A DNA stretch of 64,000 bases from NCBI GenBank assembly GCA_963575745.1, contig CAUYUJ010009391.1, forward strand, positions 327,142 through 391,141, written 5' to 3'. Shown piece after piece: positions 9,961 through 59,510 of the stretch. Source of the DNA: Prorocentrum cordatum (taxonomy: Eukaryota > Sar > Dinophyceae > Prorocentrales > Prorocentraceae). Both the position numbers and the translations under genes were made by a program. Numbering within the stretch: position 1 is the stretch's first letter; each line of letters opens with the position of its first letter. The notes beneath the pieces were generated by a model, which worked only from the letters and a program-made list of their open reading frames with translations, did no database searches and was not told the origin of the DNA.

Positions 9961-10017
9961 CCGATCTCATATGGCTCCACTCTTCCCCCTCTCCGCCACC
10001 CCCTCTCCCTCCTCCTG

Positions 10018-10118
10018 GGGGTGCGTGCACGTGAAGGAGGGGGGGGCGGGTCCGCAACCATTGCGACTCAAGCCTCACTCGCCTCAGTACAGGCGCTCAT
10101 GCCCCGCCCCTGCGCGTG
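10018..10118 (+). repeat. A1 copy of the split direct repeat (element 5' end)
   Basis: GGGGTGCGTGCACGTGAAGG, a G-run, then CGGGTCCGCAACCATTGCGA and CTCACTCGCCTC. The matching A2 copy is at 32,337-32,438. Both include an ATGCC about 27 bases after the spliced-leader-like word. Confidence 0.8.
10052..10072 (+). other. Spliced-leader-like sequence in the retroelement A repeat
   Basis: The 21 bases ending ACCATTGCGACTCAAG match the DinoSL at 16 of 21 positions, including CCATT and ACTCAAG-type 3' end. The same word is at 32,374-32,394. The ATG of ORF1 follows 26 bases downstream. It may be an old leader captured when a trans-spliced transcript was reverse transcribed, but the match is weaker than at the other sites. 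Confidence 0.4.
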
Positions 10119-11783: not shown

Positions 11784-11820
11784 ACGCCAGGGCCAGGCTC
11801 ACCGCGCCCCCGCCGCCTAA

Positions 11821-14068: not shown

Positions 14069-14312
14069 GATGGAGGCGAGCCGGGGCCGCAGCGCAGCCA
14101 CTGCCAGGTAGAGGGCCGCGGCCAAGCGGACCGCCCGCCTGGGGCCGCCCAGGCCAGCGGCGGCCGGGTCCGCGCCCACTCTGGAGTGGCTCCCGCCGAC
14201 GGCGAGCCGCCCGCGGAGGCGCGCGCAGCTGCGCCCTCCTGCGCACGGGCCGCCGCCTGCGGCTGGGCAGAGCCAGGCTGTCGGCCGGCGGGCGCTGGGC
14301 ATATCGGCTCCC

Positions 14313-15216
14313 ATGCTGCTGCGCCAGTGGCCGGTGCCGAAGCCGGGGAGCCTGTCGGTGGAGGTGGTCGTGACAGGGCCCCTGTTCGTCGCCGCGCGCG
14401 CGGAGGCCGGTGCCGGCCAGGACCGCGGCGAGGTGGCAGTGGCCGCGGAGAGCGCGGACAGCAACGACCTGGACGCCGTCGCGAGATGCGAGCGGGGGCG
14501 CTCCAAGTACCTGATGGACGCCCGGCGCGCCATGGGCCAGCTGGGCGCCCTGCGCGAGTTGGAGGTCGGGCAGCCGAAGACCAGGGAGTACTACTACCTC
14601 CCGGTCTCGAGGTTCGTATACTGGGCGAAGCAGAAGCGGCTGACCCCCCCCCGCCGAACCAGCTGGATGGGACGCTGTGCATCCTCAAGGCAGAGCTGTT
14701 CCTGTCCGAACAACCGGCGAATGTGGGAAGAGGCTGCTGGCTGGTGTCCCGCGCGTCCTTCTGGGGTCTGGGAAGGTTGGCCGGCTCTCGCTCCCGCGCC
14801 TCCTGTGCTACCTGGGGCCTTCCAAGCTGCTCGGCGTGAAGGGCGGGCACTTTGTGGCGTCGGTGGGGGGCGTGTCCCGCCACTGGAGCCGGCTGCTGGC
14901 GCCAGAGGAGCTGGGCATCCCGACCAAGGTGGGCGCGGTCAACGACGGCCTCCAGCTAGGCACGATGGAGCCGAAGTGGCTGGACGTGGTGTGGCGGGGG
15001 CTCAGCGCCGCGCCAGCGACGCAGCGGGTCTGCCCGTTCAGCTACCAGGACCTGTCGGCCGACGTGCAGACTGTCAGTGTCACGCGGGGCTGGAGGCTAG
15101 TTCCCTACCAGCATCGTCACGACAAAGCTTCGCACGACAGGCAGCGGCAGCTACGGGGCCTCCCAGAGGTGATGATGCGGGACCAAGGGCGGAAGTTCAA
15201 GTCGGTCACCAGGTAC
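14313..15216 (+). pseudogene. Tyrosine recombinase of the YR retrotransposon, N-terminal and catalytic part
   Basis: An N-terminal helical region (LMDARRAMGQLGALRELEVG, EYYYLPVSRFVYWAKQKRL) is followed by a frameshift in a C-run near 14,645, then LDGTLCILKAELFL, a second shift near 14,765, and the catalytic region RLLCYLGPSKLLGVK, GIPTKVGAVNDGLQL and PYQHRHDKASHDR. The frame reaches SVTRY at 15,216, where the nucleophile Tyr is the last codon before the 16.1-kb insert. In relatives the first catalytic Arg lies in an LRPxE-type box; here that position reads LGPSK, so Arg is lost. The remainder (EKHARV...) is at 31,324-31,431. Confidence 0.75.
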
Positions 15217-15360
15217 CCTGAGGTTCTTTTTTTCTATTTTTAAGAAAAACCTGAAAACGCCCGCGGGAAATAGAAACAAAAAAATCACAGAAAAGTTATT
15301 GACAGAAATTAGGAAAACATTCTAGATTTTCTATTTTCCAATTGGCCAAACCGTCCGTCA
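15217..15360 (+). repeat. Left terminal inverted repeat of the 16.1-kb element
   Basis: Blocks in order: CTGAGGTTCTTTTTTTC, CTGAAAACGCCCGCGGG, AAATAGAAAC and TTTTCCAATTGGCCAAAC. All four recur in the same order in the reverse complement of 31,175-31,318. Confidence 0.75.
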
Positions 15361-15760
15361 CCCGAGTTACCTGAATCCGCGCGTGCGAAGCTGTGCGAAG
15401 CTGGCTGTTGCATGGAGAGGAGGAGTGGAGGAGGTGGAGGAGGAGGAGAAGGGAGAGGAGGAGGAGGAGGAGGAGGGATAGGGGAAGGGATGGAACGAGG
15501 TTGCCTCTGTGTTGTTCTCCCGCCTTTGCCCGCTCCGAGTCGCGTGGTTCGAGCGGGGCCATCAGGTCGGGCGAGGGCTCGCGGCGATGGCGAGCGAGAC
15601 GCGGCAGCCGCGGCAGGCTCGACTGGGGAACGACAAGGGAGAAGGACGTAGGAGGAGGACGCAGGAGGAGGAGGAGGAGGAGGAGGAGGACAAGGAAAAA
15701 CGGGAGGAGTAGAAGCAACATCAGCAGCGGGAGCAGCAACAGGAGCAGCAACTGTTAACT
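15361..15760. repeat. (GGA)n tracts flanking a weak exon candidate
   Basis: GGA triplets at 15,418-15,480 and 15,657-15,715. Between them, after ATCAG|G at 15,566, the frame VGRGLAAMASETRQPRQARL runs to about 15,647 before a GT. It may be a short exon but is too small to judge. Confidence 0.45.
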
Positions 15761-16047
15761 CCCTTCCTCCTCGCCGTTGTCCTCCCCTTCATCCGTTGTC
15801 GCCGCCTCCTGCTCCTCCTCATCCCCGTGGTTCTCATCTTCCTCCTATCCAATTCCAAAAAATCCTCACGTCCCTCCTCGCCAATACTGTTGCTGTTCAC
15901 CCTCCTGCTCCTTCATTCCCTATAAAACTCATCCGACTCCTCCTTCTTCCGCCTACTCCTCCTCATCATCCTCCTCTTCCTCGTTCCCACGTCCACCGCT
16001 CCCACGTTTCTGGGCCTTCGCCTTTATCTATCCCCCCCTCGGCCCAG

Positions 16048-17370
16048 GTGCGCAGCGCCGCGAGGCCCAACGACGCGATCGACGCGGTTGGCGCTGACGC
16101 GTGGGCGGTTCCCGCGGAGAGGAGGGAGGAGGGAGGAGGGGCGACTTTGGAGAGACGAGGGGCGAGGGAGGGTAGACGAGAGAAGCGAGAGGATAGAAGG
16201 AATATGAGGAGAGAGGATGGAGGGCAGAGGAGAGAGGAGACACAATGTATGCGAGAGGAGAGGGAGGATGAGCGGGAGACGGAGAAAGCGATGAGAGCAT
16301 GAGGAAGACGATGAGTCTGGAAGATCGAGCAGGATGACGAGGGAGACCCGACGGGCCAGCCAGGTTCGCGAGCTGCCCCCCATCCAGCTGGACACGCCGC
16401 TGCGCGAGGCTGAGGACACGCCTCGTCCCTCCTCCATTCCTATCCTCCTCCTTCTCCCCCTCCTCTCCCCCTCCTCTCCTCCTCCCTCCTCCTCCGCCTC
16501 CTCCTCCCTCCTCCTCCTCCTCCTCCTCCTCCTCCTCCTCCTCCTCCTCAGCTGCTGCTTTCGCCTTGCCCCGCTCCCCAGGGCGGCAGCCAGCTGGCCC
16601 CTGCCGCCCCCGGATCGCCCGCGCCCTCGGAGGCGGAGACGGTCACAGCGAGCACTGGAGCTCTGGCCGAGGCTGGGATAGGGGGGTGATCAGGATCATG
16701 AGGGTAAAAACTAAGAGGAACGACGGTGGAACGGAGGAGGATGAGGTGAGGATGGTAATGACAGGACTTGCTAGGACTACGATGGTTTCGACGATGTCGA
16801 GGCTGGCTTATGATGGTGACGATGGTGACGATGATGTTGATGGCGTCGGCGATGGTGATGGTGGTGGTGGTGGTTATTATGACCATGATGATGGTGGCAA
16901 TGGTAAAGTGGATGATGATGGGAAGGAGGAGGAGGAGGAGGAGGAGGAGGAGAGGAGGAGGAGGAGGAGGAGGAGGAGGAGGAGGAGGAGGAGGGGAGAG
17001 GGGAATGAGGACAGGGCAATAACGAGGAGCAGCAGCAGGAGGGAGGACAAGCGGAAATACGAGGGTATGTATCAGCCTCGAGTGGGAGTTCTGCAGGCTC
17101 ACCCTTTCCACATCCTATACCGCATTGTCCAGAGATCACCCGTTCCCTTCCAACTGAATCCCCTCGCCAATCTCTGCTCCCCTTCCAACTGAATCCCCCG
17201 TCTGCTAATTCTCAATCCCCTCGCTTCCTTCTCACGCTCCACGCCCATCCGCCCGCGCCGCCCCCTTCCCAGGCGGCGGCGGCTGAAGCGCCCGTCGATG
17301 AAGATGCCGAGTTTGCGAACAAGTTCCAGGCCCGAGCCGCAACGGCAGGAGACAGTGGCCAAGGAGTGCG
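16048..17370 (+). CDS. Four candidate exons of an unrecognised gene, embedded in purine/pyrimidine-rich introns
   Basis: Each island begins right after CAG with a G and is clearly less repetitive than its surroundings. Islands: 16,048-16,119 (VRSAARPNDAIDAVGADAWA...), 16,364-16,417 (VRELPPIQLDTPLREAED), 16,582-16,674 (GGSQLAPAAPGSPAPSEAET...) and 17,272-17,370 (AAAAEAPVDEDAEFANKFQA...). The AG|G acceptor is the known dinoflagellate preference. Intervening DNA is GA-rich early and TC-rich late (for example GGA repeats at 16,925-17,000 after a GAT-rich part; TCC repeats 16,440-16,550). Donor sites are not clear GT, which dinoflagellates tolerate (GC and GA donors). Exon joins are inferred; the protein family is unknown. 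Confidence 0.35.
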
Positions 17371-18014
17371 AGGGAAAGGAGTAGGATGAATGAGAGGCGG
17401 GGGGAGAATGTGAGCGGCCAGGGGGACAAGGAGATGCAGGGATGAGGGTGAGGATGGTCGTAAAAAACAGTGAAGACGATCAGCAACTAATCAAGATCGC
17501 GACGACGATGACGTAGAGGGGGAGGGAAGGACTAGCAGGAGGGAAGGAAACGAAACGATGGAGAGGAAAGCGGGACCACCTTGGAAGGTCGGCTGGAGAG
17601 CAGGCTGGATTCTCAACGACAATACCTAGACGGGAACTTCTGAGATGCGGCCCTGACCCTTGTTCATCCCCGAAATGATCCCCCTCCCCCCCTTCTTCCG
17701 TCATGCCTTTGCCCTCCTCCTCTGCCTCTCCTCATTCCCTACCTCCTCATCCAGCTGCTGCCCCATCTCCACCCCATGCCCCCCCTCCTCTTGCTCGGAG
17801 TTGGCCCGTGTCACACCCCTGGCCTATTTCACAGTTTAGGCACATGCTCTGTATGGTTAATGTTTCGCGTGGTCTGAGTATGGGTGAGAACGAGTATGAG
17901 TCGGTCTCTTAGTGAGTATTCAGAGTTTGCGTGAGTCTGAGCGTGAGTGAGGCAGACCATGAGTGGTGATTACGGGCGAACTTGGCCCTAGCACGAATCG
18001 CAGCTCTCGTTCGA
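17371..18014. other. No gene recognised
   Basis: GA-rich then CT-rich low-complexity sequence and a GAGTATGAGT-rich stretch (17,870-17,950). No supported exon. Confidence 0.5.
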
Positions 18015-18036
18015 TCCGTAGAAATTTTGGCTCGAG
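18015..18036 (+). other. Relic dinoflagellate spliced leader
   Basis: TCCGTAG, then two changed bases, then ATTTTGGCTC-G-AG: 19 of 22 positions match the DinoSL. It lies 57 bases upstream of the ATG of the 571-codon ORF. A genomic leader upstream of an intronless ORF is the accepted hallmark of a reverse-transcribed, reinserted dinoflagellate mRNA. Confidence 0.85.
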
Positions 18037-18093
18037 CCTAAATTCAGGCTTGCAGCGCTAGCCTCCATTCGTTCGCACCCGCGGCGAGGTTCA

Positions 18094-19809
18094 ATGGCTG
18101 ATGGTGGTGACGACACTAAGAACATCGCGAATGCGCTCGACCCACACATCCAGAAGGTCAATTCCATCACCTACAAGATCGAAGGTGGCATGAACAGGGC
18201 GCTCATGACGTCCCACAAGGACATAGTCAAGGACCTCATCGCCGTACGGTCCAATCTGAGCTTCAAGAAGATAGAGATGCAGCATGCCTTCAAGCACGTG
18301 GCGCAGCGCTTCGCCTCCAGGACCTCGCACGAGAAGACTGACTGGCGCGAGACCATGGCCGCCCGCGCGCGGGCGCTGTGCAGGCATGCGGCCCAATACA
18401 GGTGCAAGAAGACGGGCGCGCCGAGATGGTTCAGGAGTTTAGGCCTGGCTGATGGTGGCGATGATAGCGCTGGCGAGGACGGAGCGACTGGCTCCGCTCC
18501 CAGCGGCGGTGAGAGCCAAGGCAGCGCTGGGTCAGGGAGAGGAGGGACGGGCCGCCGCCCTTCGAAGCCACCAGCTTCCAAGGCCGAGGAGGAGGCCGCA
18601 CGCAGTCAAGAGGGCGAAGAAGAGGAGGAGGCGGAGGACGAGTTCGACGAAGATGAGGAGGACGAAGAAGAGGAGGAAGAGGAGGCAGTGGAGGATGAGG
18701 AAGAGGCCGACGCTGCTACATATGATTCGAAAGGAAAGGCGGCATCGGCTGGGACGGGGCCCAAGATGAAGAAAGCACTCGATCAAGGAACCGGGGGGCA
18801 GCCAGTGAAGAAGAAGCCTGCAGGAGCCGCGCTGGGTTACGAGGACTACACGTTCTCCTACGACCCCGAGACGCGCCTTGCCAGTCGGCGCCCGAGGGGG
18901 AGTAAGAGGAGCACTCACGACGAAGACTGCGTACGAATGGAACCGCCCGAGAACGGGTGCCCCACAGACCCCGTGAATGCAGTCTTCGGAGACGGCATGG
19001 TCCACAAAGTTGCGGAGACCACAGTCGCAAGTTATACAGCATCAGCTGCGGCCTGCAAGCCTCCGTCGAAGAAGACCAGTGGGCACGAGAAGTACGAGTT
19101 CAGCGGCGACCACCCTGAAGGAGGCCACCTCAGCACCAGCCTTCGGTGGAACAACGTCAGAGACAAGCCCGAGCAGCGCTTGATCAGCTTCAAGCACTCT
19201 GGGTGGCAGATCTTGCAGATCGACGTCCTCCATTTCAGGGCCGACGGCAATGAGGACAGGAACATCGACGAGGTAAACGAGCTCCCAGTGTTGGAGAAGG
19301 CGGGCCTCCAGTGGGCGTACCCCATTGCAGAGCGCATGAGCAAAGGTGAGATCGACCTTGAAGAGGCCAAGCGGCTGAAAGCGGATAAGATCAAGGAGCA
19401 CGAGGCCATCGTAAAGAAAGCAAAAGGGGAGGGCAGCGAGAACAACCCCACTGGCAAGGCTAGAGGGAAAAGAATCAAGATGAAGCGCCCTGCGGCGGCA
19501 GAGACACAGCCAGAGACCGTTCCCGAGACACCATCAGGCTACGAGTCCGACCCCAAGAAGCACAGCCACGACGAGTCTTCCCAGATTGCAGCTGAGGAGG
19601 ATATCAACCAGCACGATGGCAACATGGCGGTGATGCACGGGGTGACCGACGCCACAGTTTCAGGAGATGACGCTGTCATCTCGACGGGCTCGGCTGCTTC
19701 GGCCGCGACAGGTGGCTCGGAGCAGCAGAGCGTGACGCCATCAACGAAGCCTAGGATCAGCCCGCCCGTGTCTAGGATCAGCCCGCCACCAAACAGCGAT
19801 TCCGAGTAA
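18094..19809 (+). CDS. Intronless 571-aa ORF of unknown function, acidic middle and Lys-rich parts, preceded by relic spliced leader
   Basis: ATG at 18,094, TAA at 19,807. Residues 1-110 are non-repetitive and look helical (LDPHIQKVNSITYKIEGG, MQHAFKHVAQRFAS, a CRHAAQYRCKKTG segment). About 120-165 is Gly/Ser-rich and 165-210 is an almost pure Glu/Asp run. About 330-430 is again globular (HEKYEFSGDHPEGGHLS, RLISFKHSGWQILQIDVL, LEKAGLQWAYPIAERM), then a Lys-rich helix (residues 430-470, EEAKRLKADKIKEHEAIVKK) and a Ser/Pro-rich tail. The acid and Lys blocks suggest a nuclear or nucleic-acid-associated protein, an inference only. No signal peptide or membrane segment. The frame is intact for 1.7 kb, unlike its neighbours, so it may be recently inserted or functional. 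It lies between candidate exons on both sides, possibly inside an intron. Confidence 0.6.
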   Translation: MADGGDDTKNIANALDPHIQKVNSITYKIEGGMNRALMTSHKDIVKDLIAVRSNLSFKKIEMQHAFKHVAQRFASRTSHEKTDWRETMAARARALCRHAAQYRCKKTGAPRWFRSLGLADGGDDSAGEDGATGSAPSGGESQGSAGSGRGGTGRRPSKPPASKAEEEAARSQEGEEEEEAEDEFDEDEEDEEEEEEEAVEDEEEADAATYDSKGKAASAGTGPKMKKALDQGTGGQPVKKKPAGAALGYEDYTFSYDPETRLASRRPRGSKRSTHDEDCVRMEPPENGCPTDPVNAVFGDGMVHKVAETTVASYTASAAACKPPSKKTSGHEKYEFSGDHPEGGHLSTSLRWNNVRDKPEQRLISFKHSGWQILQIDVLHFRADGNEDRNIDEVNELPVLEKAGLQWAYPIAERMSKGEIDLEEAKRLKADKIKEHEAIVKKAKGEGSENNPTGKARGKRIKMKRPAAAETQPETVPETPSGYESDPKKHSHDESSQIAAEEDINQHDGNMAVMHGVTDATVSGDDAVISTGSAASAATGGSEQQSVTPSTKPRISPPVSRISPPPNSDSE

Positions 19810-20315
19810 GGCGCTGCCCGAGACTCGTGCACTAGGCTGTAGCGGTGCGAAGTCCATAGGCATAGCGACGACGACGGAGAGCGTTGTCAAAGATGACGTT
19901 GATGTTGAAGATGATGACGACGGAGATGACGATAACGCGAAACGAAGTGTAGGCATCTTGCGATGCTATAGTTAGTGTATTTCTCCACCGCCTCTTCCTC
20001 CTCCGCACCCCTCTTTCTCCATCTCCTTCTCCTCATCCTATTCATCCTTATCCTCGCCCGTCCAGGCCGCGACGCACTTGCGCCAGGATGAGACCAGGAG
20101 CGCCGAGCGTGCTGACATCGTCGCAAATCAATCCGACATCTGAGTCCCGACACTCTCATCCCTCCTGTCCTCATACCCTTTCCTTCGCCTCCCCATCGCC
20201 TCCGATTCCCTCCCCCCATCAACCCTCCGAGCCGATCTCGATATGTGCCCGCATGCCTCTGCGAATGCATTCGCCGTGCCAGCGCCCCGCTCTTTGCGCT
20301 CATGCTACCCCCCAG
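19810..20315. other. 3' flank of the 571-aa ORF; low-complexity
   Basis: GATGAC-rich stretch (19,870-19,940), then CT-rich sequence leading to the CAG acceptor at 20,313-20,315. No poly(A) run or target duplication for the upstream ORF is obvious. Confidence 0.4.
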
Positions 20316-22697
20316 GCCGAGCTCGAGATGGTGAACGAGAACCTCATTGATATCAAGAAAGGCATCACCGCCACCATCGACCCGAAGCAGACCCCCAGGA
20401 CTCGTCTAACTGTTGTTTGGCAGTCGCCGTTCCACCCTCCTGTGTTCCAATGAGCAATTCGTCATTGCCCCTATCCTCCCTCTCCGCCCTCCTCACCTCC
20501 AGGCTCCTTTCATTCCCCCCTGCCAGGTCATCCCCATTCCCTGCCTTTCCACTCGCCCTCCACCTCCATTGCACTCGCATCGAATGGCCCACTTTTAGAT
20601 CGACGAACTTCTGCCCTCACAGTCCCCCTGCCCGTCTCCCCTCACTAGCCGCGCCAACGCTCACAATGAATGTCCCTTGCGTGTGGTTCCCGTAGATGAG
20701 GCCCCGAGCTAATTATGGGCAGTTGTGAGAGCATTGATGGGATAGAATCGAATGAACGAGGGATGCTTTTGACGTGGCCTGTTAGGGCCAACAGTTCGAA
20801 GAGCAGCTCATGATGGCATTCGTGGAGTCGGGGAAGGCCAAGCTCGGCGAGGATTCGGAACCTGAGGACGAGATGGCCGAAGAGGGGAAGGCCGCGAAGG
20901 CGCTCCTCGATGAGGAGAGGGATGAGTTCCTCGAATGGGCAGCCACAGAAGGGTTCCACAAGATCGGATCTCAAGACGCTTTGGGGCGCAGGTACTGGCG
21001 CTGGCTTCAGCCCAGCGGTCAGATATATGAAAAAAAGAAGTACGACGCCGCGGGGCAGACGGAGAAAAGAAAACATGCGGGCCCAATGGTGCAAGGGCGA
21101 GTACGAGGCGTACAAGGACGACCGCTTTTGCACTTGACCCCAGACTTGTGAGAACGGGCGGAATGCATAAGCAGATTGGATATAATATACGTCCAACGCT
21201 CTTGCATAACCAACTTAACCTATAGATGGTATCGCCCTCTCTCCTCCAACGTTCGCAACCACCCCGCTCTCCCGACAGCAGCGCAACCCCTGTCCTCTCT
21301 AGCTGCGCACCTCCCCGCAGTCCGAGCCTACACATAGCGAGCTCATTATGGATTGTCTACGAGGTGCGTGCTACCATCAACATCCTCCACATTCCCTGAG
21401 GCATCCTGATACCAACTACGAGCACTCACATAGATATCGGGAGAGAGACATATAGAGCAATGGGCATGCGATGAATTAATGGCGGTCGGGAAGGAACGGG
21501 TAGATGTTGGTGCACGGATGGATAGGGTGAGGGAGGTCTGTGCATACATTGATGTGGATGTCTACCCAATGCCGCACATATACACAATTTTATGTAATTG
21601 TTTACCCGAACGTGTGGGTCACTATATGGGTGGCACGTGCATGCGCACATACGCACTTATATACATACATGGTGCAGCATGGTGCACACATGTCGGTACA
21701 CACATACATGCATATATATAAATATATGTGTATGCATACATATATAGATGTATGTCTTGATAATAAAAAAGCTAGCGCGCTCGTGACAGGAGTCCCGCAC
21801 CAAGCTGGAGGAAACGGCGAGGGCTAGCACCCAGATCTACACCTACCTCACGTTCGACGGGATGGCGACGGCGCAGATGGGTGGCGGTGGGGGGGCGCCA
21901 ACCCAAGCCGCCATCCGAGGCGCGGTCAACGAGTGCTTGGATTGTATCAAACGGGGATACGTGAAGCTGAACAAGAGATCCAAGAGGCTGACCTTTCGCA
22001 GCGTTCTCGAACAGGAGGTCAGAACAAACCGCGAGTCATGGCAGAGGCGCCGCGAGGAGTTCACCTCGTCATCGAGCCTGGGCGCGGATGCGTCCTCGAG
22101 CGCTGTCACCCCGCAGGCGAAGGCCAAGGCGGCGCCGATCATCACACCCGCGAAGGAGCCCGAACCGATCGAGGCCGACGACGAGAAAATGGAGGCGGCA
22201 ACCGTGAGCAAAGCCCAGATGGCATCCTCTGGCCAGCAGGGCAAGGGCAAAGGCAAGAGGGCACTGGCAAGTCGAAGGGCAAGGCCAGCAAGGGGAAGGC
22301 GAAATCGAAAGCAAAAGCGAAGGGCAAGGCTGCTAAGGCTGATCCCGAAAAGGCTAACCCCAAGAAAGCGAAGGACTTGACCCTCAAGTACGGCTCCACC
22401 TTGCAGCAAGCAGAGGCCATGGTGTCCTCGATTGAACTACCCAATGGAGAGTACGCCTGGGCCAAGCAGGATAGGTTCCTGGGCAAGCTGAAGCGGTCCG
22501 TCGATCGCGTGAAGGCGCATGTCAAGAACTCCACGGACATGCACGCGATGCTCACGCTGGGCGAGGAGTACTACCCGACGAAGAGCCCTCAGGATGAGTC
22601 GCAGCTCATGGACGAGATCGAAGAGATGCTTGACGCGGTGGCTTCGACCACCAAGCGGATCCGCACGATCCACGCCGACGACGAGCCCTCGCAGTAG
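20316..22697 (+). CDS. Three-exon gene fragment encoding a Lys/Ala-rich helical protein, one frameshift
   Basis: Exon 1: 20,316-20,390 (AELEMVNENLIDIKKGITAT...). Exon 2: 20,795 to about 21,060 (FEEQLMMAFVESGKAKLGED..., GRRYWRWLQPSGQIYEKKKY), possibly continuing in another frame to 21,137 (RAQWCKGEYEAYKDDR). Exon 3: 21,790-22,697, starting ESRTKLEETARASTQIYTYL, then a Gln/Ala region, a KGK-rich linker with a one-base frame change near 22,255-22,265, and a C-terminal part (AWAKQDRFLGKLKRSVDRVK..., ESQLMDEIEEMLDAVASTTK) to a TAG. All three exons begin after CAG or ACAG. The pattern of charged helices suggests coiled-coil content. I do not recognise the family. Introns hold CT-rich DNA and a TACA/CATA repeat. 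Confidence 0.5.
21540..21760. repeat. AT-rich CATA/TACA repeats in the intron
   Basis: ACATACATGG and ATATATATAAATATATGTG-type sequence, markedly AT-rich against the GC-rich background. Confidence 0.7.
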
Positions 22698-22744
22698 GAG
22701 AGGCGCTCGGAGCTTTTGAGCTCTTCGGGTCGGGTTCTGTCGCA

Positions 22745-22955
22745 GGGGTGGGGGAGAGACGGCTAAACACGCACAGGCACGCACGCACACACATCTAAAT
22801 ATACCATGATACATAGACATGTCACTCATTTACACATGCATTCTGGCATAGAGATCGATACACCACAATCATATTGAGCCATGCATCCATGTCGATTGTA
22901 TGCATACGCATAAATATACAGAGTGAGTGAGGGAGGGAGGGAGGGAGGGAGAAGC
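22745..22955. repeat. CACA/CATA and GGGA simple repeats
   Basis: GCACGCACGCACACACAT, then ATACATAGACATG words and GGGAGGGAGGGAGGGAG at about 22,930-22,950. Confidence 0.6.
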
Positions 22956-23194
22956 TTTGCGTCACGCTCGTGCCCAGTCATTGTTGCCACAGCCGCGCGG
23001 GCTTCAATGCATGCAGGATCGCATCCGTGGGAAGGGTGTGCACTTGCTTACGGCTGTTGAACAATAAAATGTGTCAGAGTCTCGTCGGCACTTGGTGTGC
23101 CGAATGCTGTTGAGATGCCACCGATATCTGAAATCCTGGCGGTGGGAACCTCTCTGCACTGCGTTTTCAATCGATCGATCTGTCCCAGGAGAAT

Positions 23195-23335
23195 GCGGGT
23201 AAACTTCGGGTAAACTTCGGGTACACCCGGGTAGATGCGGGTAAACTGCGCTCCCGCTCGATACATCCCCACAACTCTGAGCGGGTAAACTTCGGGTAAA
23301 CTCCGGGTAAACCCGGGTAGATGCGGGTAACTTTG
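23195..23335. repeat. 12-bp minisatellite CGGGTAAACTTC
   Basis: CGGGTAAACTTC and CGGGTAGATG variants repeat at about 23,195-23,260 and again 23,281-23,335, separated by a unique 20-bp stretch. Confidence 0.8.
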
Positions 23336-24875
23336 AGTTGGAAGGTTTGGTAGCCTCCGAAGCGCGTGGATCGACGACTCCGCGCCTTGCGGACCGTGAG
23401 AGAGGGAGGCAGAGGATGAGCGAAAAGGAGTGAGAGGCATAGGATGAGGATAACAATGGGATGACGATGTACATAAGTAGAAGGAGGATGGCACTGAGGA
23501 GGAACATACATAGGGCGAGGAGCCAGTTGAAGGAACAAGAGCGCCCTCAGCAGAAGAGCAGGTGAGATGGGCACTGTAGCGAGGGGAAGCTTCTATCCTC
23601 TCCGCCCCATCCCATCCTCTTTACCTCGCCCCCCCCAGCGTCTCCCCTCCCATCCACCTCTCTCCAACCCCTTCCCGTCTCACTATGGTCCGTTCCCACC
23701 CAGTCACTCCCATCTCCTCCGCGCCCGCCCACTCCGAATCAGGCGCTTGCATCCACGCCACTCGAATCAACTTGCTAGTCCCCCGTCATCTACTATGTTC
23801 CTTCATCTCCAATCGCTTCCATTCCACCCGATCCACCCTCCATCCCCCCCCCGCTCCAACCTACTTGCGCGCGCTCGGGGCCCGCCGCGGGCATCGACTA
23901 CGTGAACGGCGGCCGAGGACAGGGCGGCTGAGACGAGGAGGCAAATGAAGGGATGATGAAATGGAGGGTGGGGAGTGGAGGGAACTAGATGGAATGGAGA
24001 ACAGCATGTGTGGGAAGATGTAAGAACAATGCCAGGGAACATCGTAATCACGAGCTGCCGCGCTCTGCCCCTACCCATTGATAGATCAAGTGCCCCCAAC
24101 GGGACCCCATATCGTTTGATCACGAGGTGCCACTACAAATGATCGGGTATAGGCCCCGTGATTGACCAAGTATACATATTTAAACAAATAAGTAGAACGA
24201 TTAGGAGGATGCGGAGGATTGGGATGAGGAGCGTCAGCATCGGCAACACTTATAGAGGATGTGCTACCCCTGCAGACCGACAGCAAATTTGCCCTGGCGG
24301 TGCCGCGCCCATCTCTTATTCCAGACCGTGGATGCATCACCGTTGTAGCTCCATGGGGAGAAACGAAAGGGGGGTAGATGTCCGCCGTCGAGCGCGCTCC
24401 ACCTCTCCATCTAATTCCCCCCCTCTCCTCGACCTCCTCCTCCACTCCGTTCTCGTGGGGGGTCAGTCTGGAAGCGCCACCGAGGGTCTAGGGTTGGCAG
24501 CGGGGCTGAGGGCACCCCCATAAAACTTCAGCTGCCCTAAGGCCAGAATAACTTGCTACCGTGGTCTTGTCGCGCGCTGCCAGGTCTCTCCCCTTCGTCC
24601 CTCCTACCCCGCTCCTACCTCGTTATCTCCCTGCATCTTTCCCACTGCGTCCAGCCCCCAACCTACCTCCACCCACGCTCCATGGAATTTGCTGCGCCCG
24701 ACAATTGTCTGAACGGGGCTTTTTGGATATCGGCGTCTGGTGGCGGAGTTTTGGATGTCGATTACGTGTGGCGTTTCGTATGCTGCATCCTCACACTGAG
24801 CCCATTGCATTCAGCTCAGTTCACTCTCGTTCATTCCTGTAGATCATCGATCATAACATGTTGCCGCTGTCGTGA
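23336..24875. other. No gene recognised
   Basis: Alternating GA-rich and CT-rich sequence with some mixed stretches. Open frames up to about 120 codons (for example 24,158-24,523) lack motifs and overlap frames on the other strand. Confidence 0.45.
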
Positions 24876-24897
24876 TCCGTAACCATGTTTGCTCAAG
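24876..24897 (+). other. Relic dinoflagellate spliced leader
   Basis: TCCGTA-A-CCAT-G-TT-T-GCTCAAG: 19 of 22 positions match the DinoSL, with the whole 3' end GCTCAAG intact. The first ATG of the downstream ORF is 29 bases further on, a typical 5' UTR length after a leader. Confidence 0.85.
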
Positions 24898-24926
24898 CTG
24901 TATAAGAAACATCGCATTTGCTTCGC

Positions 24927-27102
24927 ATGTCCCGACCGAAGAAGGCTCGCTGGGATTCTCCAGTGCGCAGGCACAGCTGGGAAGATCTCGATCAGGACAC
25001 AGGCTGGGGCGATGCCGAGCATGCGAGGCGAGCAGACCAAGAGGAGTCTGCACGTGAGCTCGAAGAGCACTTTCTTCGCCAGTACGCCTCAGGGAAGATG
25101 GACGTGACGGCCCTGTGTCTGGCGTGCCACTGGGCTGCTGCAGCTGGCGTCACTAGCACCAGAATTTCTAGATGCGCGGTTCCCCCAGGAAAACAATCAG
25201 GCGCTTATTCGAGACATTTGTTAAGAGTACTTCCGCTGCAGGAGTCGGCACCCGAGTTCAATGCGCTTTCTCTCCCCGTCAACGGGAAGGGCAGGAGGGG
25301 CAAGAAAGACGTGGTAGTGACACCTGCACACGAAGTCCTTGATGCCGAGCTCAAGGTCTTGAGCGCCTCTGGGCATCCTCTAGCGGAGCCGTCGGAGGCA
25401 GATTGGGTGCCGGCCTTCAACGAGCACGTGTACAGGAGTATTCCAGGCGACGACCGACAAGTTTTCCCAGTGGCCGTCTACGTGGACGGGATAAAGTACA
25501 CACGGGCAATAGGACCAGGCAGAGCTGACAATGTTGTTGCATTTACATGTTATAACTTATGTACTCAGAGGAGACACTTGCTTGCAGTCCTCTCGAAAAA
25601 CGAAGTTTGCAAATGTGGGTGCGGAGGGTGGGATACGTACTGGGGCGTGCTGGACCACATAAGATGGTCGATCGCCGCGGCGACCCGAGGGGGGCGCCCT
25701 GCAGTCCAAGTGGACGGGGCCCCTTGGCCCGAGGGCTCGCCATACGCCGACGCGGCCCCGCTCTTGGCAAGGTTCCTTCTTGTACAAGTCAAAGCAGATT
25801 GGGCTGAATTCTGTCATACGCTGGGGATGCCTCAATGGTCAAGCCATCACGCCCCGTGCTTCCTGTGCTCCTGCGATGCAGCAAACATGTACAACTTCCA
25901 CGGCATCTCATTGGACGATGACGGTTGGGGGGGCACGTCCTAATACGTACGAAGGTGAATGCACACGTTGTGAGCACCGCATCCGGATAGACACGGAAGC
26001 AGTGAGGCAGCAAGTGATCTTGGAAGGGCTCCTGCATTACGACAGGGCCAAAAAGGTTGGGCGCATGTTGGGGGCGGCCGTCCCCGCGCTCGGCTTGCAA
26101 CGTGGAGATCGGTTGGGGCCGTCTTCAGAATTGCGCAACCCCGCGGACTTCGAGACGGCCCCTCTTGGATTCACGTGTATCTTCTGGAGGAGTCACAAAG
26201 ATGACAAAAATCGGAAAATGGATTGGACCAACCGCCGTTGCCCACTTTTTTCCCACGAGCTTGGGACGAGTCCTGCTATTGTGTTGCATATAGACACACT
26301 CCATGCATTATACCTCGGAGTATTCTCTCGTTTTGTTTATGCCGTTCTGTGGCTGAAATCAAACCCGTGGGGAATCGACGCACCACAGGCAGCGTTGTGG
26401 GCAGCTGGATTGAAACGGTTATTCAACGACTATAAAGTTTGGTGCACGCGTGAGAGTATTGATTTGTCGTACCAACTTTCGACGCGAAGTTTGTCTATGA
26501 TCGGGGCGTCTGGAAGCATGAAAGGTTTAAAAGCAAAGGCTGCAGAAACTGGAGTTCTCGTCAGATGGGTTGTAGATTACCTCCGTAGGGAGCAGGGCAG
26601 ATTCCAACGCGGAGCTAGGCTGCTCGCCGCTGGCGAGGCCGTGCTGGAATACATCAAAATATTGAAAGAGTCAGAGTTTCGAGTCCCGTTAATGACTCGC
26701 GAGCGTTTACTGTTTCTTTGCAAGCGCCACCTTTTCTTGATGGGCGAGGCGGGTGAGGATTTTCAGCCCAAGTCACACATGTTCGTCCATCTTACACTTA
26801 ATATCCCCAACCAAGGGAATCCTAGATGTTACAGCACATTCTTGGACGAGAGCCTTAATTTAATAATAGCAGGGGTCGCCGCTGTCGCTCGCAAATCAAA
26901 TTGGGAACGCACGATTTTCAACAGGCTCAGACTCCTCCCGTATGTATCAAAGAACTGTGCTTTGCAACGGCGTAACAGGTCGCTGCGATGGTATATGCAA
27001 AAGGAGAAGAAGGAAACGGATGAGAAGGATGAGGAGGGTAATGATAATGAGACTGCGCACCACCAACAGCAGCAGAAACGACTGGAGCCGAGCGAAACCT
27101 GA
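24927..27102 (+). pseudogene. Possible transposase-like dinoflagellate protein, broken by one frameshift in a G7 run
   Basis: ATG at 24,927; the frame runs to 25,943 and continues in the +1 frame from about 25,934 to TGA at 27,100. The junction is a run of seven G (25,927-25,933), so a single-base indel, real or from assembly, explains it. Combined length is about 725 codons. Visible features: VFPVAVYVDGIKYTRAIG, a CKCGCGGWDTYW segment, HAPCFLCSC, a CTRC motif, VLHIDTLHALYLGVFSRFV, PKSHMFVHL and NPRCYSTFLDESLN, then a Lys/Glu and poly-Gln tail. The spaced D and H motifs with Cys pairs recall Tnp2/CACTA-type transposases, but I am not sure; it belongs to a kind of protein that is widely multiplied in dinoflagellates. 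Relic leader 29 bases upstream and no introns indicate retroposition. It could be the mobility gene of the 16.1-kb element. Confidence 0.55.
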
Positions 27103-27711
27103 CCAGACAGCAAGGGTTGCGGCCATTATCATTTTTGCCGCAATTGGCAGGAGGGGCAGAGCAGAACAGCAAGAGGAGAAGAAGGAGGAGGAAGATACGA
27201 AGACGGGTGATGAGGCCGACGACGACCATGAGAAGTATCAGAGCATGGGAAACACACATAAGAAATGTCTGGGCGGGAACGCGGCCACGACGGGGGCAAA
27301 GCGGATCCGACCGCTCCCTACTCGGCTCCCGTATCCTCTGCTCCCCGCCTCTCCTATTACGTCCTCGCGTTTCTCTCGTCGTGCTCTCGCCTCATCCTCC
27401 TCAACTTTCCTACCGCTTCTGCTCAGCCATCCGCCGCCTCTCAGGCGTGGCTTTCCCAATGGATCGACAAGAGGTCCCGGAGGCCATATCCTAGGACGGA
27501 GGTCGATAGGCCGCATCCACAGTTGAAGCTCGCAAAGGCTATACCCTGAAGTGAGACAGCGAATGAAACGGCGAGTGAGGGCAGGTGGAAAGGGACGGGC
27601 CCTAGACGAGCCCGCCTCCGCGCGAGGATGGACGGCGCCAGGGCGCTGGCTGGCCGACGCGCGGGCCACGAGTCACGCGAGTGACAGGACTCGCGCCGCT
27701 TGCTCCTACAC
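27103..27711. other. No gene recognised
   Basis: Mixed and GA-rich sequence. A segment near 27,590-27,690 (GC-rich, frames open both ways) has no support as an exon. Confidence 0.45.
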
Positions 27712-27800
27712 CTCCTCCTCCTCCTCCTCCTCCTCCTCCTCCTCCCTGTTATCCCCCTCCTCCTCCTTGTTCTCTTCCTCCGCATCTTCCTCCTTTCCCC
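27712..27800. repeat. (TCC)n tract
   Basis: About 80 bp of TCC/CTC triplets with small interruptions. Confidence 0.8.
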
Positions 27801-27897
27801 CTCGCATGTTCTAAACTGTGGTTGGGAATGTGGGGCGGGGGCGACCTGGTTGATGACAGCGTCGCTCCACCTTTCCTCATCCTTCCCCTGTGTAGGC

Positions 27898-28495
27898 GTA
27901 TGTTCAAGTTGACTGTCAGACTTATGTTCAAGTTTGTGGTTCGACTCCTGTTTGAGTTTCTGATTAGACGTCTGGTCAAGGTTATTGTTCGACTTATGTT
28001 CGAGTTTCTGGTTAGGCTTCTAGTGAAGCGTCTGGCTGGAAGTCTGTTAAAATTCATGATTAGACGTGTGTTCAAGTTTCTGGTTAGACGCCCGTTCAAG
28101 TGCATGATTAGGCCGTTGGTTAAAGTTCTTGGTTGACGTCTGGTCGAGTGTCTGGTTAGACTACTGTCGACGTGTCGGGTTAGACGTATTCCCAACTTTC
28201 TGGTTTCTGGTCAAGTTTCTGATACGACGTATGTCAAATGTTATGGTTGATTTTCTGGCCAGGTTTATTGTTAGACTTATGTTCGAGATTATGGTTAGAC
28301 TGATATTCAAATTAAGTGTTGTATTTCTGTTCGGGTTGCTGGTTACACGTATGATCAAGTTTACGGTTAGACTAGTGTTCAAGTTTCAGGTTAGACTTCG
28401 GTTTCGGTTTCTGGTTAGATTTATGCTCGCACTTCTGGTTAGACTGCTGTTCAAGTGCCTTGTTACACGTCTGTTCAAGTTCACGGTTAGACCAC
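27898..28495 (+). repeat. 24-bp minisatellite encoding an 8-residue FKFLVRRL-like repeat, about 25 copies
   Basis: Variants of TGTTCAAGTTTCTGGTTAGA repeat every 24 bp. As 24 is a multiple of three the frame reads FKFLVRRLMFEFLVRLL-like octads with two breaks (TGA near 28,133 and a short irregular part 28,190-28,215). The octad alternates basic and hydrophobic residues. There is no start codon context or SL relic, so translation is unproven. Confidence 0.8.
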
Positions 28496-28890
28496 GACGG
28501 AGACCACGACCACGAAAACGACGGCGACCACGACGACCCTCCACCTCGGTCGATACGACCAAAACAGCGACAACGACGACTACCATGACGGCAGCAATGG
28601 CGACCGCGACGGCGACCACGACGACGACGACGACGATCGCCACGACGACGGCCACGACGACGAGGAGGACTCCTCCTCCTCCTCATCATCATCAACATCC
28701 ATTCCATCATCAGGATCATCACGTTCCTCCTCCTCCTCCTCCTCCTCCTCCTCCTCGTCTTCAACCTGGCCCTCCTCCTCCCCCTCGCCCTCATTGTGTT
28801 CTCGTACTCATCGTCTTCATCATCTTCATCCGCCTCGCCCTCCTCCTCCTCCTCGGCATCTTCCCCTCCTCCTCCTCCTCCTCCGCAGCC
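28496..28890. repeat. CACGAC/ACGACG repeats then (TCC)n
   Basis: CACGACGGAGACCACGACC-like words to about 28,665, a CATCAT stretch to 28,720, then CTC/TCC triplets up to the exon candidate at 28,912. Confidence 0.7.
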
Positions 28891-28911
28891 GCCTCGCCCC
28901 CTCGCTCTCAG

Positions 28912-29893
28912 GCCGCGGGCTGGGCGGGCTGGCAGCTGGCCGACTACGCAGCGATCGAGGAGGACCCCGCGTTTCGACTGGAGAGGAGGCTTGGGCAAGA
29001 GAGCGATTGGAACAATGAGGAGGGGCATGGGGCGTGGGTGGGAAGGCGGAGGAAGAGGGGGCGCGAGTGGGAAGGGGGAGGAAAAGGCAGAATATGACTA
29101 CGGCAAGGCACGGAGGGGAAGTATCAACACGAGCAGGGATCACGATACTGAAGATGAACGGGGATGGAGGTGGTTGGATGCGGAGGCGTGGGAGGAGGTG
29201 GACGGACGATGAGGCGTAGGAGGGTGGGGGATGACGGGGAGGATCAGCATTGCCAATATTCGATCTACAGCTCAGAGCTTGAACGGCGTCGGACGGCATC
29301 CACGACAGTGGATCGGGAGCAGCCGCCCCGCCCCGCCCCCCGACCAGGGATACGAGGAGGTACGAGGACAAGGATAGAGGAGGGAGAGCGTGGAAAGCAA
29401 GGGAGGCGGGAGGAGGGGGAGGAGCGACGAGGAACGGGGACGGCGGCGACGACGACGACGACGACGATGAGGACGACGAGGACGATGAGGACGATGCCAA
29501 CGACGAATGCGGCGACGACGGCGACGACGACGACGACGATGAGGACGACAGAACGGATCCTGGCGCGGAGCGAGCGGTCGGCGCGAGCCATCTTCCGCCG
29601 CCTCTCTGTCCTCCCCCGTCTTAGGGATCCCTTCCTTCTTCCCCCACTCATGCTCCCCAGTCTCCTCGTCCTACTCTGTTGCTTTTTAATGCTTCTCATC
29701 CTGCTACTCCGTATCGTTCTCCTCGTCCTCCCGACCTTTCCTCCTCCCCCCCCGTGCCCCTGATTCTCCTCGAATCCCCGTCCTCGCCTGCCCTTCCGCT
29801 ACCCCCTCCTCCTCCTCTTCCTGCTCCTGCGCGCCCGCAACCCCGTCCCAGGTGGACCTCGCGGCCGCGAACTCCAATCTGATCGTGCACTGA
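28912..29893 (+). CDS. Two candidate exons, the second terminal
   Basis: After CTCTCAG, 28,912-29,004 encodes AAGWAGWQLADYAAIEEDPA plus FRLERRLGQES, a non-repetitive segment amid simple repeats. After CCCAG, 29,852-29,893 encodes VDLAAANSNLIVH and ends in TGA. The DNA between (29,005-29,851) is GA-rich, then GACGAC-rich, then CT-rich. Joining them is inference. No family is recognised. Confidence 0.35.
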
Positions 29894-29931
29894 GCCTCTG
29901 CTCTGTGCCCTGAACCGTTGCTCGCTAGCTA

Positions 29932-30405
29932 ATTTCTCAACCACGCCCAAAAACGGGTTATGTTTTCAACCACGCCCAAAAAAGGGTTCCTTGCCATACG
30001 CCCTAAAGCGGGATCCTTGCTCAGTTTCACAGGGGTTCTTGCTGTTCCGAAGGGGGGAACCCATTGCGCGAGGCCACCTTTCCTAATTGAGGGGTGTGCA
30101 GGGGTCGGGCGCCTCCGTGGACCGCGTCGCTGTTGCAGAGAACATGCGACACAACCATTTCCGTCTCTCTCTCTCTGTCTCTTCCTTTTTCCCCCTACAT
30201 GCATGCATGCATGCATGCGCACGCAACTATGTACATACATCCTTACATAGATATATAGGTATGTGTACACATATATGCATGCAAATATACATACATACAT
30301 GCATGCATGCATGCATGCATACATACATATATATACACATGTGTGTACACCTGCATACGTACATCCATACATACGTACATACATACATATATACATACAC
30401 GAAGG
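29932..30405. repeat. 30-bp duplication and CATG/TACA simple repeats
   Basis: TTTTCAACCACGCCCAAAAA occurs twice near 29,934-29,990. From 30,187 to 30,405 GCATGCATGCATGC, TACATACATA and ATATATACAC words dominate. Confidence 0.65.
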
Positions 30406-30417
30406 CGTGGCAGAACA

Positions 30418-30715
30418 GGAGGAGGAGGAGGAGAAGGAGTAGGAGGAGGCGGAGGAGGAAAAGGAAGAGGAGGACGAGGCGGAGGAGGAGGAAGAGGAGG
30501 ACCCGCCGCCATCATCAAACCGCAAGGCTTGCGAGTGCGACTGAGATGAAGCAGCGCGGGGGGAACGCTACCGTAGATGCGGGGGGAAAGGAAAACGAGG
30601 AATAGGAGGAGGAGGGGGAGGAGGGGGAGGAGGAGGAGGAGGAGGAGGGGGAGGAGGAGGAGGAGCAGGAGGAAGAGGAGGAGGAGGAGGAGGAGGAGGA
30701 GGAGCGGGACGGAGG
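30418..30715 (+). repeat. (GGA)n tracts
   Basis: Two GGA blocks (30,418-30,505 and 30,605-30,707) with a short mixed segment between. Confidence 0.85.
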
Positions 30716-31174
30716 GGGCGTGGAATATGTGGAAGGACACGCCCAGGCACGCGGAGGTATCGACTGATATCTTGCACGGGCATTGGTCTCGCGATACTTG
30801 CCACGACGACGGGAAAAAAAACAACGGGGGAGGGCGCGCCAGCAGCCCGCTCGTGCGGGGGCCGTCGGGCGCAGATTGCGTGGGAATAAAAAAACGCACC
30901 AGTAGCTTATAAGCGGGAGGAAAGGCCACGTGGGTGAGGAGGGCAAGGATAGGAGGACGAGTAGGAGAAGGAAGGAGGAGGATCCGTTTGAATCCATGCG
31001 CGGCGAGCACTTCTATGAAAGATGTCGGCCGTGGATTACGGACAATTTGCCTGACTTGACCTACCTTTCGACGCGCATCGCATTCGCTTGTTTCGGAAAT
31101 AGCGGCGGCGCGAGAGGCAAGGTGAAAGGAGTAAGAGAACTGCCCATTTTCTGTAACAAAAACATAAGTTCGTG
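30716..31174. other. No firm gene; a weak exon-like frame near the right end of the 16.1-kb element
   Basis: The plus-strand frame 30,985-31,178 (FESMRGEHFYERCRPWITDN..., TYLSTRIAFACFGNSGGARG) is more complex than its surroundings but has no acceptor or domain I can identify. Confidence 0.3.
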
Positions 31175-31318
31175 TTGACCGATTGGAAAGTGTTGTCTGC
31201 TGGACATTTGTCGGGCCATTTACTGTTGTTTCTATTTTTTTGCCGGGCGCCCGCGGGCGTTTTCAGAAAATTTTGAAAATGAATCCTTTTCTAATTAAAA
31301 GGAAAAAAAGCACCTCTG
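31175..31318 (-). repeat. Right terminal inverted repeat of the 16.1-kb element
   Basis: Its reverse complement reads CAGAGGTGCTTTTTTTCC, CTGAAAACGCCCGCGGG, AAATAGAAAC and TTTCCAATCGGTCAAC in the same order as the left end at 15,217. Confidence 0.75.
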
Positions 31319-31320
31319 GG

Positions 31321-31431
31321 TACGAGAAGCACGCGCGAGTGAGGCCGGAGTTCGGCGAGCAGGACGCCCGCGCGCGAAGCCACTGCGTATGCTGCGAGTC
31401 ACTGCGCGCGGGCGTGTGCCCCGGCAGGTGA
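31321..31431 (+). pseudogene. C-terminal tail of the YR retrotransposon recombinase, resumed after the insert
   Basis: TAC GAG AAG CAC GCG CGA GTG in frame 1, the same frame as the upstream YR at 15,216, encodes YEKHARVRPEFGEQDARARS and a CVCCE motif, ending at TGA 31,429. A frameshift near here precedes the methyltransferase-like part. Confidence 0.75.
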
Positions 31432-31439
31432 AGCTCGCT

Positions 31440-32145
31440 CAACCTCGGTCCCCAGCATGTGTGAGTATGACATATGTAGCATATTGTTTTTCGGGCTGCG
31501 GGGTGGTGAGCAAGAAAATTCGGTTGGCCGGTTTCAGAGCTCGGGAGTGGGACGTCCGAAAACCCATAAAGCAAGACCTCGCCAACGGCCGATGTATTGG
31601 CCTAGTGCTTGCCCCCCCCTGCAGCTCGTGGTCGGCTGCTCGAGATCGTACATGTCCAATTCGGTCTAGGAAGTTTATCAGGGGGATCCGGGTCTAAAGG
31701 CCAGCGATGTGGCCAAGGTCGCTGTCGGTATTGCCACGCTGAACGCTGCTCTTGACCTGGCCCGTGCTGCCCAATCCGCCGGGGTCCCCTGGGTTTGGAG
31801 AACCCGCATACATCTAAGATGTGGCACGACCACAAGCTCAAAATTCTTGTTGCACGAAGTGGGGCCGCTCAAATTATAATTGATTTCTGTCAATGGGGGA
31901 AACCGTGGCGAAAGAGGATTCGTTTTTTGGTCGGTAATGTTTGCCCCGACGACCCTGTAAAGCTTAATCGGGTCTGCTCTGGGCGTGGAGTCTGCAGCCG
32001 CACGGGACGCCCACACCAGCACCTGGAAGGCGGGGGGCCTAAAGGAATTCGCTGGACGGTGCTGGCAATGCCGTGCCCCGCTCGCCTGGCCCACGTGCTG
32101 GCATCCGTCTTGGTCTCGAAAGCCCGCAGTGAGTATAGCATTTGA
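31440..32145 (+). pseudogene. Cytosine-C5 methyltransferase-like domain of the YR retrotransposon
   Basis: Motif I-like YCFSGCGVVSK (31,475-31,510), motif IV-like LVLAPPCSSWSAARDRT with the PPC catalytic-loop signature (31,600-31,650), motif VI-like ENPHTSKMWH (31,798-31,827) and a motif VIII-like IDFCQWGKPWRKRIRFLVG (31,880-31,940). The frame changes near 31,665-31,690 and 31,790-31,797. The final part (VCSGRGVCSRTG..., GIRWTVLAMPCPARLAHVLA) ends at TGA 32,143. DNA methyltransferase domains inside retrotransposons are known from Symbiodinium, and DIRS elements carry a different (adenine-type) one. The target-recognition part is not visible. Confidence 0.65.
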
Positions 32146-32178
32146 TAACTTCACTCTACCTTCGGATCGGGAGGTTTG

Positions 32179-32597
32179 GGGTGCTTCTTTTCATAATGTT
32201 TTTCGCTCGCTCACTCTATGTTTATATTTTCTGGGCTCTCGTTCCCTCGTCCGCTCGCTCCCAGACGTCGCGGCGATGGCACAAAATGGCTAGTTGACAA
32301 AACACATCGTGTAGAGCGGCCTGTCATCCCCTCCTGGGGGTGCGTGCGCGTGAAGGAGGGGGGGGGGGCGGGTCCGCAACCATTGCGACTCAAGCTTCAC
32401 TCGCCTCCCTGCGCCAGCCCAATGCCTCGGCTCCTGAAGGGTGCTTGTTTTCACAATGTTCTTCGTTCGCTCACTCTATGTTTATCTTTTCGGGGCTCTC
32501 GTGCCCTCGTCCGCTCGCTCCCAGACGTCGCGGCGATGGCACAATATGGCTAGTTGACAAAACACATCGTGTAGAGCGGCCCTGCCATCCCCTCCTG
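32179..32597 (+). repeat. B1-A2-B2 split direct repeats (element 3' end)
   Basis: B1 (32,179-32,336) and B2 (32,439-32,597) are about 158 bp each and nearly identical: GGTGCTTSTTTTCAYAATGT, ...CCCAGACGTCGCGGCGATGG, ...AACACATCGTGTAGAGCGGC, ending CCCCTCCTG. A2 (32,337-32,438) between them repeats the element 5' end, including the SL-like word (32,374-32,394). Confidence 0.85.
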
Positions 32598-59441: not shown

Positions 59442-59510
59442 GTATTCTGGTGGGCGGGGCAGATACTCGGGTGAGGCGCGAGAGGGGCGGCGCGCCATCC
59501 CTGCCCGGCG

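Follow-up and report, generated by a model that had tools for sequence, protein, structure and literature searches.

A 16-kb DNA transposon of Prorocentrum cordatum, a candidate dinoflagellate member of the CMCT clade with leader-like sequences before two of its genes

We analysed a stretch of 64,000 nucleotides from the dinoflagellate Prorocentrum cordatum (assembly GCA_963575745.1, contig CAUYUJ010009391.1, 327,142-391,141), called the window below, with positions counted from its first letter. Inserted in it is very probably a member of a 16-kb, low-copy family of cut-and-paste transposons, belonging to a large dinoflagellate lineage of the CMCT clade, with a transposase predicted to follow the RAG1/Transib plan and spliced-leader-like sequences most likely acquired via retroposition. 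The initial annotation had proposed that a tyrosine-recombinase retrotransposon is interrupted by a large DNA transposon of the cut-and-paste type, and this is borne out by the ends, the 2-bp duplications, the empty sites and the presence of several copies.

Ends, copies and insertion site

15216 to 31320, plus strand: whole transposon, 16,105 bp, defined by its inverted ends, other copies and an empty site in 5 of 5 fetched paralogues
15216 to 15348, plus strand: left inverted end, starting 5'-CCCTGAGGT... and containing the block TGAAAACGCCCGCGGG at 15252-15267
31175 to 31320, minus strand: right inverted end, read inward 5'-CCCAGAGGT..., with the block at 31250-31265
15214 to 15215, no strand: left copy of the target duplication (TA), from comparison with copies B, C and D
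31321 to 31322, no strand: right copy of the target duplication (TA), from the same comparison

Terminal inverted repeats are a mark of cut-and-paste DNA transposons. Here the left end aligns to the inverted right end over about 140 bp, in ordered blocks as first described, with a score of 96.5, compared with a best score of 54 among somewhat under 1,000 random 220-bp segments of the window. The central block TGAAAACGCCCGCGGG is found within the window at both ends only, each time exactly, in a scan allowing up to 3 mismatches.

DNA searches of the genome (4.13 Gb, 21,875 contigs) used both ends and the transposase as queries; only the best candidates were scored, so the copy number is a lower bound. 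The copy in the window (C9391:327142-391141) is called W and the others A to E. Copy B (C3993) is 97.1% identical across 15215-31320. Copy A (C13889) matches in two pieces (97.3% and 97.9%) from 15210 to 22985, after which comes a contig gap. Copy C (C18620) is 95.9% identical up to 30276 and reaches its right end only after another 20 kb or so, and copy D (C21346) is 93.1% identical up to 30182, with a right end at 91.7%. Copy E (C21346) is a partial tandem duplicate of D that includes the right flank of D (98%) and has no left end. A search for co-occurrence of the two ends elsewhere, which the initial annotation had suggested, thus finds them paired at about 16 kb in B and D, and with about 20 kb of extra DNA inside in C. 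Pairwise differences among W, B, C and D are 1.7-4.8%. Substitutions seen in W alone number 108 over 14,750 sites, and 84 of these are transitions. It is a low-copy 16-kb family, a small branch of a large group, and its copies are worn.

The extra DNA of about 20 kb inside copy C lies beside a TA-rich repeat (C18620, about 101-122 kb), and on C21346 a tandem segmental duplication at about 12.6-49.8 kb, 98% identical, takes in the greater part of one transposon copy together with the right flank of that copy.

The left end starts with CCCTGAGGT in W and copies A to C; copy D has TCCTGAGGT here. At the right terminus, W and copies B to E all have CCTCTGGG (E, as a duplicate of D, is no independent case), and so does a different family (C2054, C20844). 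The element termini are CCC..GGG, with T as the first base in copy D. Because of the flanks in copies B, C and D, the duplication is placed at 2 bp and the element at 15216-31320. On its left and right W is flanked by TA/TA, B by AA/AA, D by AG/AG and C by AG/AA (one mismatch), i.e. the duplication is exact in three of the four copies having both ends (TA, AA, AG). The pentamer GGTAC, earlier noted at both junctions, is literally present at 15212-15216 and 31319-31323; the duplication is its internal TA, 2 bp rather than 5. As a 5-bp target duplication GGTAC was rejected from comparison with copies B, C and D, the bases adjoining TA agreeing by chance.

The element lies inside a retrotransposon:

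10011 to 10085, plus strand: host retrotransposon repeat A1, from direct-repeat comparison
10536 to 15213, plus strand: interrupted part of the host tyrosine-recombinase (YR) retrotransposon, with internal open reading frames (ORFs) and reverse transcriptase- and YR-like motifs recognised by eye
31323 to 32597, plus strand: remainder of the host retrotransposon, the end of the recombinase frame followed by B1 (32179-32336), A2 (32330-32407) and B2 (32439-32597)

When the flanks are rejoined they read ...SVTRYEKHARV... in frame, so that the recombinase frame is restored without a frame change, as the initial annotation had noted. The interrupted codon is Y, which we take to be the catalytic tyrosine of the recombinase; the window copy inserted within this codon and so broke the recombinase frame. 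The expected terminal repeats of the YR element are found on both sides of the insertion as split direct repeats (10011-10085 and 32330-32407, 93.6%; 32179-32336 and 32439-32597, 93.7%). The layout A1 - B1 A2 B2 is presumably that of an Ngaro/PAT-type retrotransposon, and the host shares with such tyrosine-recombinase retrotransposons the split direct repeats and the RY recombinase motif. A Pfam scan of the host-element ORFs gave no match above the cut-off.

A query from the left flank (14900-15216) had 14 matches in the genome, the window included. Five of the 13 others, paralogous YR elements of the kind in which the initial annotation had advised looking for empty sites, were fetched, and all five continue without a break past the insertion point (about 1,250 bp aligned, 79.6-93.3% identical). 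Divergence between the host repeats, about 6%, exceeds that between W and B, as would be expected if the transposon arrived later. That the assembly joined unrelated sequences by mistake is hardly credible: one related copy does stop at a contig gap, but both junctions recur in copies with unrelated flanks, and the empty site is exact.

Transposase, candidate accessory frames and classification

24927 to 27102, plus strand: transposase gene, about 725 codons, its frame changing once, at a G-run
25485 to 26848, plus strand: transposase motifs from motif comparison, D near 25485 and 25797, CxxC at 25857-25868, HxxxH at 26776-26790 and E at 26848
18094 to 19809, plus strand: ORF1, 571 codons, open over its full length in W and D and interrupted in A, B and C
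21859 to 22697, plus strand: ORF2, candidate accessory gene, an unbroken frame of 279 codons in A, B and D, with a frame break in W

The transposase has protein homologues with E-values down to 4e-84 for its first half and 1e-92 for its second half. Of the 4,699 candidates in the first-half search 120 were scored, yielding 121 matches, and the relatives outside the close family are 38-53% identical. By hand count, 43 of the 121 rows have a stop-free open frame of 686-974 codons. At the place of the frame change in W, copies B, C and D are without the G-run. The D-D spacing is 99-108 in seven proteins, and the distances from the second D to the first C and from the last H to the E are both 20 residues in the five proteins in which both were found by pattern. 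Among nine aligned long-frame relatives D, D, CxxC and E are present in all, and HxxxH in eight. Compared with L154, the coding sequences in this alignment diverge most at codon position 3 (0.64-0.69, against 0.36-0.44 at position 2), which argues that the protein is constrained across families. A protein-pattern scan of viral contigs gave 35 stretches, none of them a relative; a 14-base pattern scan of the same kind of contigs gave at least 120 stretches, taken as chance.

To compare folds we used a structure model of a relative, P0010. This model, of moderate confidence (predicted local distance difference test score, pLDDT, 74.3) and for a protein 31-33% identical, aligns best to RAG1 with Z 12.9 (402 aligned, root-mean-square deviation 6.9). 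It gives Z 11.3 to BbRAGL and 8.4 to Transib, and the tentatively predicted fold of the relative aligns to this group over most of its length. We take the CxxC and HxxxH of the transposase to be placed as the zinc residues of RAG1. The transposase core would then be an RNase-H-like DDE/D fold, split by a long helical insert that carries the CxxC...HxxxH site. Transib/RAG1 elements (ProtoRAG) have a target duplication of 5 bp and termini that carry CACAGTG/CACAATG. Unlike these, the present element has a 2-bp duplication and termini without either motif, and unlike in ProtoRAG/RAG1 no RAG2-like protein was recognised among the ORFs tested.

According to excerpts of PMC12730594, the CMCT clade comprises EnSpm/CACTA, Mirage, Chapaev, Transib/RAG1, Plavaka, ESTA and Lanisha, which have DDE/D transposases. 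In the same excerpts it is defined by an acidic triad, by C(2)C and H(3-4)H between the second D and the last E and by duplications of 2-5 bp, and the termini are 5'-CA..TG-3' "in most cases", i.e. not as an absolute criterion. By motif the transposase group has the triad and the C(2)C/H(3-4)H pattern, with exceptions in P0011 (second C) and L165 (second H), and the duplication of 2 bp lies within the range of the clade. The element differs from the clade in its CCC..GGG in place of 5'-CA..TG-3' termini, its 16 kb, three ORFs, lack of a Pfam match, encoded spliced-leader-like sequences and dinoflagellate host. A Pfam scan of the ORFs and homologues tested gave nothing above the cut-off except a reverse transcriptase of a long interspersed nuclear element (LINE) and an FKBP-TPR gene. 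Judged by these sequence features the element is of a known broad kind, the CMCT clade; it is a real transposon of uncommon size, and no Pfam model covers its lineage. The suggestion in the initial annotation that no described superfamily has these features does not hold, since they fit this clade, though the lineage matches no Pfam model.

Within the clade, ESTA (EnSpm-like, TA duplications, fungi) shares the 2-bp duplication and the resemblance to RAG1. In contrast to ESTA, the duplications here are TA, AA and AG, i.e. not TA-specific, and a TET/JBP gene was not recognised by Pfam in the ORFs tested. A plant- or fungal-type EnSpm/CACTA element in the narrow sense is unlikely. Its accessory ORF, element length and CxxC/HxxxH motifs are compatible with what we see, but the termini are CCC..GGG, neither CACTA nor CAC, no Pfam transposase model matched, and the duplication is 2 bp as against the 3 bp given for CACTA in excerpts of PMC4158355. 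In the open-licence literature we found no paper on CACTA together with dinoflagellate genomes and transposable elements, and one, on Merlin, for a new DNA-transposon superfamily in dinoflagellates; among the papers listed for RAG1/Transib and protists, no title concerns an element of this kind.

All three ORFs lie in the same order in B, C and D (93-97% identical to W), and A has ORF1 and ORF2 before its gap. ORF2 is 32% identical over its length to an ORF in the C2054 family (E 2e-32). Being present in every close copy that covers it and in a different family, ORF2 is best read as the element's own gene, and because of this relative we rejected its capture as cargo. For ORF1 there was no match in the C2054-family element, and of 7,991 candidates scored from 5.8 billion proteins none reached E 0.001. 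Neither ORF has a Pfam match above the cut-off (for ORF2 the C2054 relative was scanned at full length). By analogy with the second ORF that CACTA elements have according to excerpts of PMC4158355, both may be accessory transposition proteins.

The initial annotation had viewed the ORFs as gene cargo. The 571-codon ORF and the transposase-like ORF are indeed present; captured status conflicts with the recurrence of ORF2 in the C2054 family and with the ORFs in every covering close copy. A composite, in which a captured host segment with the ORFs as cargo lies between transposon ends, is very improbable in our judgement. It would be compatible with ORF1 having no relatives in the searched database and with the long simple repeats of the segment, but the common order of the ORFs in the other copies speaks against it, and for ORF2 it is largely refuted by the recurrence in a family with the same right terminus.

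From these features we infer the chemistry of excision and insertion, the roles of ORF1 and ORF2 and, as discussed below, the origin and function of the leaders. The transposase, probably together with the ORF1 and ORF2 proteins, would bind the A/T-rich, CCC..GGG-ended inverted repeats; it would then excise the element and insert it at a new site with a 2-bp stagger.

Elsewhere in the transposon, two short exon-like stretches lie between ORF1 and ORF2 (20303-20400 and 20789-21040), the second with coding-like codon use, and a decayed 24-bp tandem array lies at 27893-28492.

Leader-like sequences before the genes

18016 to 18036, plus strand: DinoSL-like sequence, 3 of 21 mismatches, 57 bp before the ORF1 start, present in copies A-D with small changes
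24877 to 24897, plus strand: DinoSL-like sequence, 3 of 21 mismatches, 29 bp before the transposase start, unchanged in B, C and D

The sequence of the spliced leader DinoSL was confirmed from excerpts of PMC6050394. The window has two matches to it with at most 3 of 21 mismatches; 100 shuffles had none, and the best of 60 permuted leaders in the window had 5 mismatches. The A repeats of the host retrotransposon also contain DinoSL-like stretches (10052-10072 and 32374-32394), which are weak, with 5 mismatches each, a level reached by 5 of the 60 permuted leaders.

We then scored the 5' regions of 32 relatives, hand-picked for N-terminal coverage and spread when their own leader scores were unknown. 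They were fetched in two batches (12, then 20 after scoring the first 12) and give 34 regions with the two in W; several come from the same family, so there are fewer independent cases. Two of the first 12 (L156 and L159) have poorly placed starts and were counted as misses. With gapped scoring, 21 of the 34 regions (19 of the 32 relatives) outscore every one of the 100 shuffled leaders. The opposite strand never scores higher than 9.5, which is less than the shuffle maximum in every region, so that none of the 34 passes there. Across strongly diverged families the leader is on the same strand as the gene and, where the start codon can be placed, 0 to about 57 bp before it. In a set of 13 distinct leader sequences, chosen for their low number of mismatches, positions 4-18 each agree with DinoSL in 9-13 sequences and the final three positions in 9, 8 and 6.

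DinoSL in DNA is, according to excerpts of PMC6050394, an accepted mark of a gene retroposed from mRNA. Here a leader copy or relict is found in the DNA upstream of the start codon. By that accepted criterion the transposase gene and ORF1 would each have gone through a trans-spliced mRNA that was copied back into DNA, the leader afterwards spreading with the element by DNA transposition. The occurrence of the leader in diverged families suggests either repeated recopying or retention as a promoter or leader.

The latter alternative, in which the leader-like sequence is a functional DNA-encoded spliced leader and the transcript starts with it or is initiated by it, is possible, if doubtful. It would account for the constant strand and similar position despite strongly diverged coding DNA and for the variation being highest at the 3' edge of the 13 distinct hits. 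A promoter role has also been proposed for retained DinoSL relicts (PMC6050394, in excerpt). Against this, the field treats DinoSL in DNA as a mark of retroposition, and the 13 hits were picked for few mismatches, which inflates their conservation. Going by the sequences, a retroposed origin with later spread of the leader by DNA transposition appears most likely, functional retention being its main rival.

The element resembles DinoSL-tagged dinoflagellate retrogenes in having a leader copy in the DNA upstream of a gene with a long open frame. It differs from them in what is tagged, a DNA transposase together with its partner, both of which travel as DNA and are common to the copies. The new part appears to be an encoded spliced leader before a DNA transposase across many families. 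In the open-licence papers listed by our searches, as far as their accessible portions go, we found no description of an encoded leader before a transposase, which is not proof that it is undescribed. In its accessible portions, PMC7789003 (Amoebophrya) mentions DinoSL and transposase, treats trans-splicing and introners apart and describes no leader before a transposase, and the word "transposase" occurs 0 times in those of PMC12014239, PMC6050394 and PMC11453091.

Weight of the evidence and implications

Several observations weigh against the assignment to a cut-and-paste family of RAG1/Transib plan with retroposed leaders. The duplication of copy C is imperfect (AG against AA). The left flank of copy A (L122), whose right end was not seen, is CAGGTA as in the window, either by chance or through a target preference absent from B, C and D. 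For the second family, the complete left end was not seen in the sequence examined. No close copy has an uninterrupted transposase frame, homologue P0011 is without the second C and relative L165 without the second H. Within the close family the ratio of non-synonymous to synonymous substitution rates (0.57-1.13 for the transposase and ORF1) is about neutral compared with a non-coding control (median 0.79, n=101), and selection is visible only across families. The resemblance to RAG1 depends on a moderate-confidence model of a relative 31-33% identical; with this model Foldseek found nothing at E < 0.001 (best Transib, E 0.082), and a sequence search of the PDB gave no match. Finally, in 13 of the 34 regions the leader fails to outscore every shuffled one, and the regions sampled do not each stand for an independent family.

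Two further features lie in the window to the right of the transposon: a LINE-like element at 50436-56085 (RVT_1 reverse transcriptase at E 2e-16, plus an endonuclease match that is weak and does not reach the cut-off) and an FKBP-TPR protein gene with a single long open frame at 59475-61142.

RAG1 derives from the wider CMCT transposase group, according to excerpts of PMC12730594. A dinoflagellate branch that is abundant, diverse and in part intact would extend the known range of the RAG1-type fold and would supply candidate active elements. The encoded leaders would link DNA transposition to the recycling of mRNA. Through them one can ask whether mRNA is a source from which dinoflagellate transposons regain their transposase, and whether a leader can act as a promoter once it is fixed in DNA; they bear on the open question of how retrogenes survive in dinoflagellate genomes. 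We regard it as quite possible, though short of probable, that these elements form a very large, partly intact group of RAG1-like transposons in which leaders encoded directly before the transposase genes are kept by selection. If so, the transposons would either refresh their transposase repeatedly via mRNA, or hard-wire the leader as a promoter or mRNA leader and so escape their dependence on trans-splicing.

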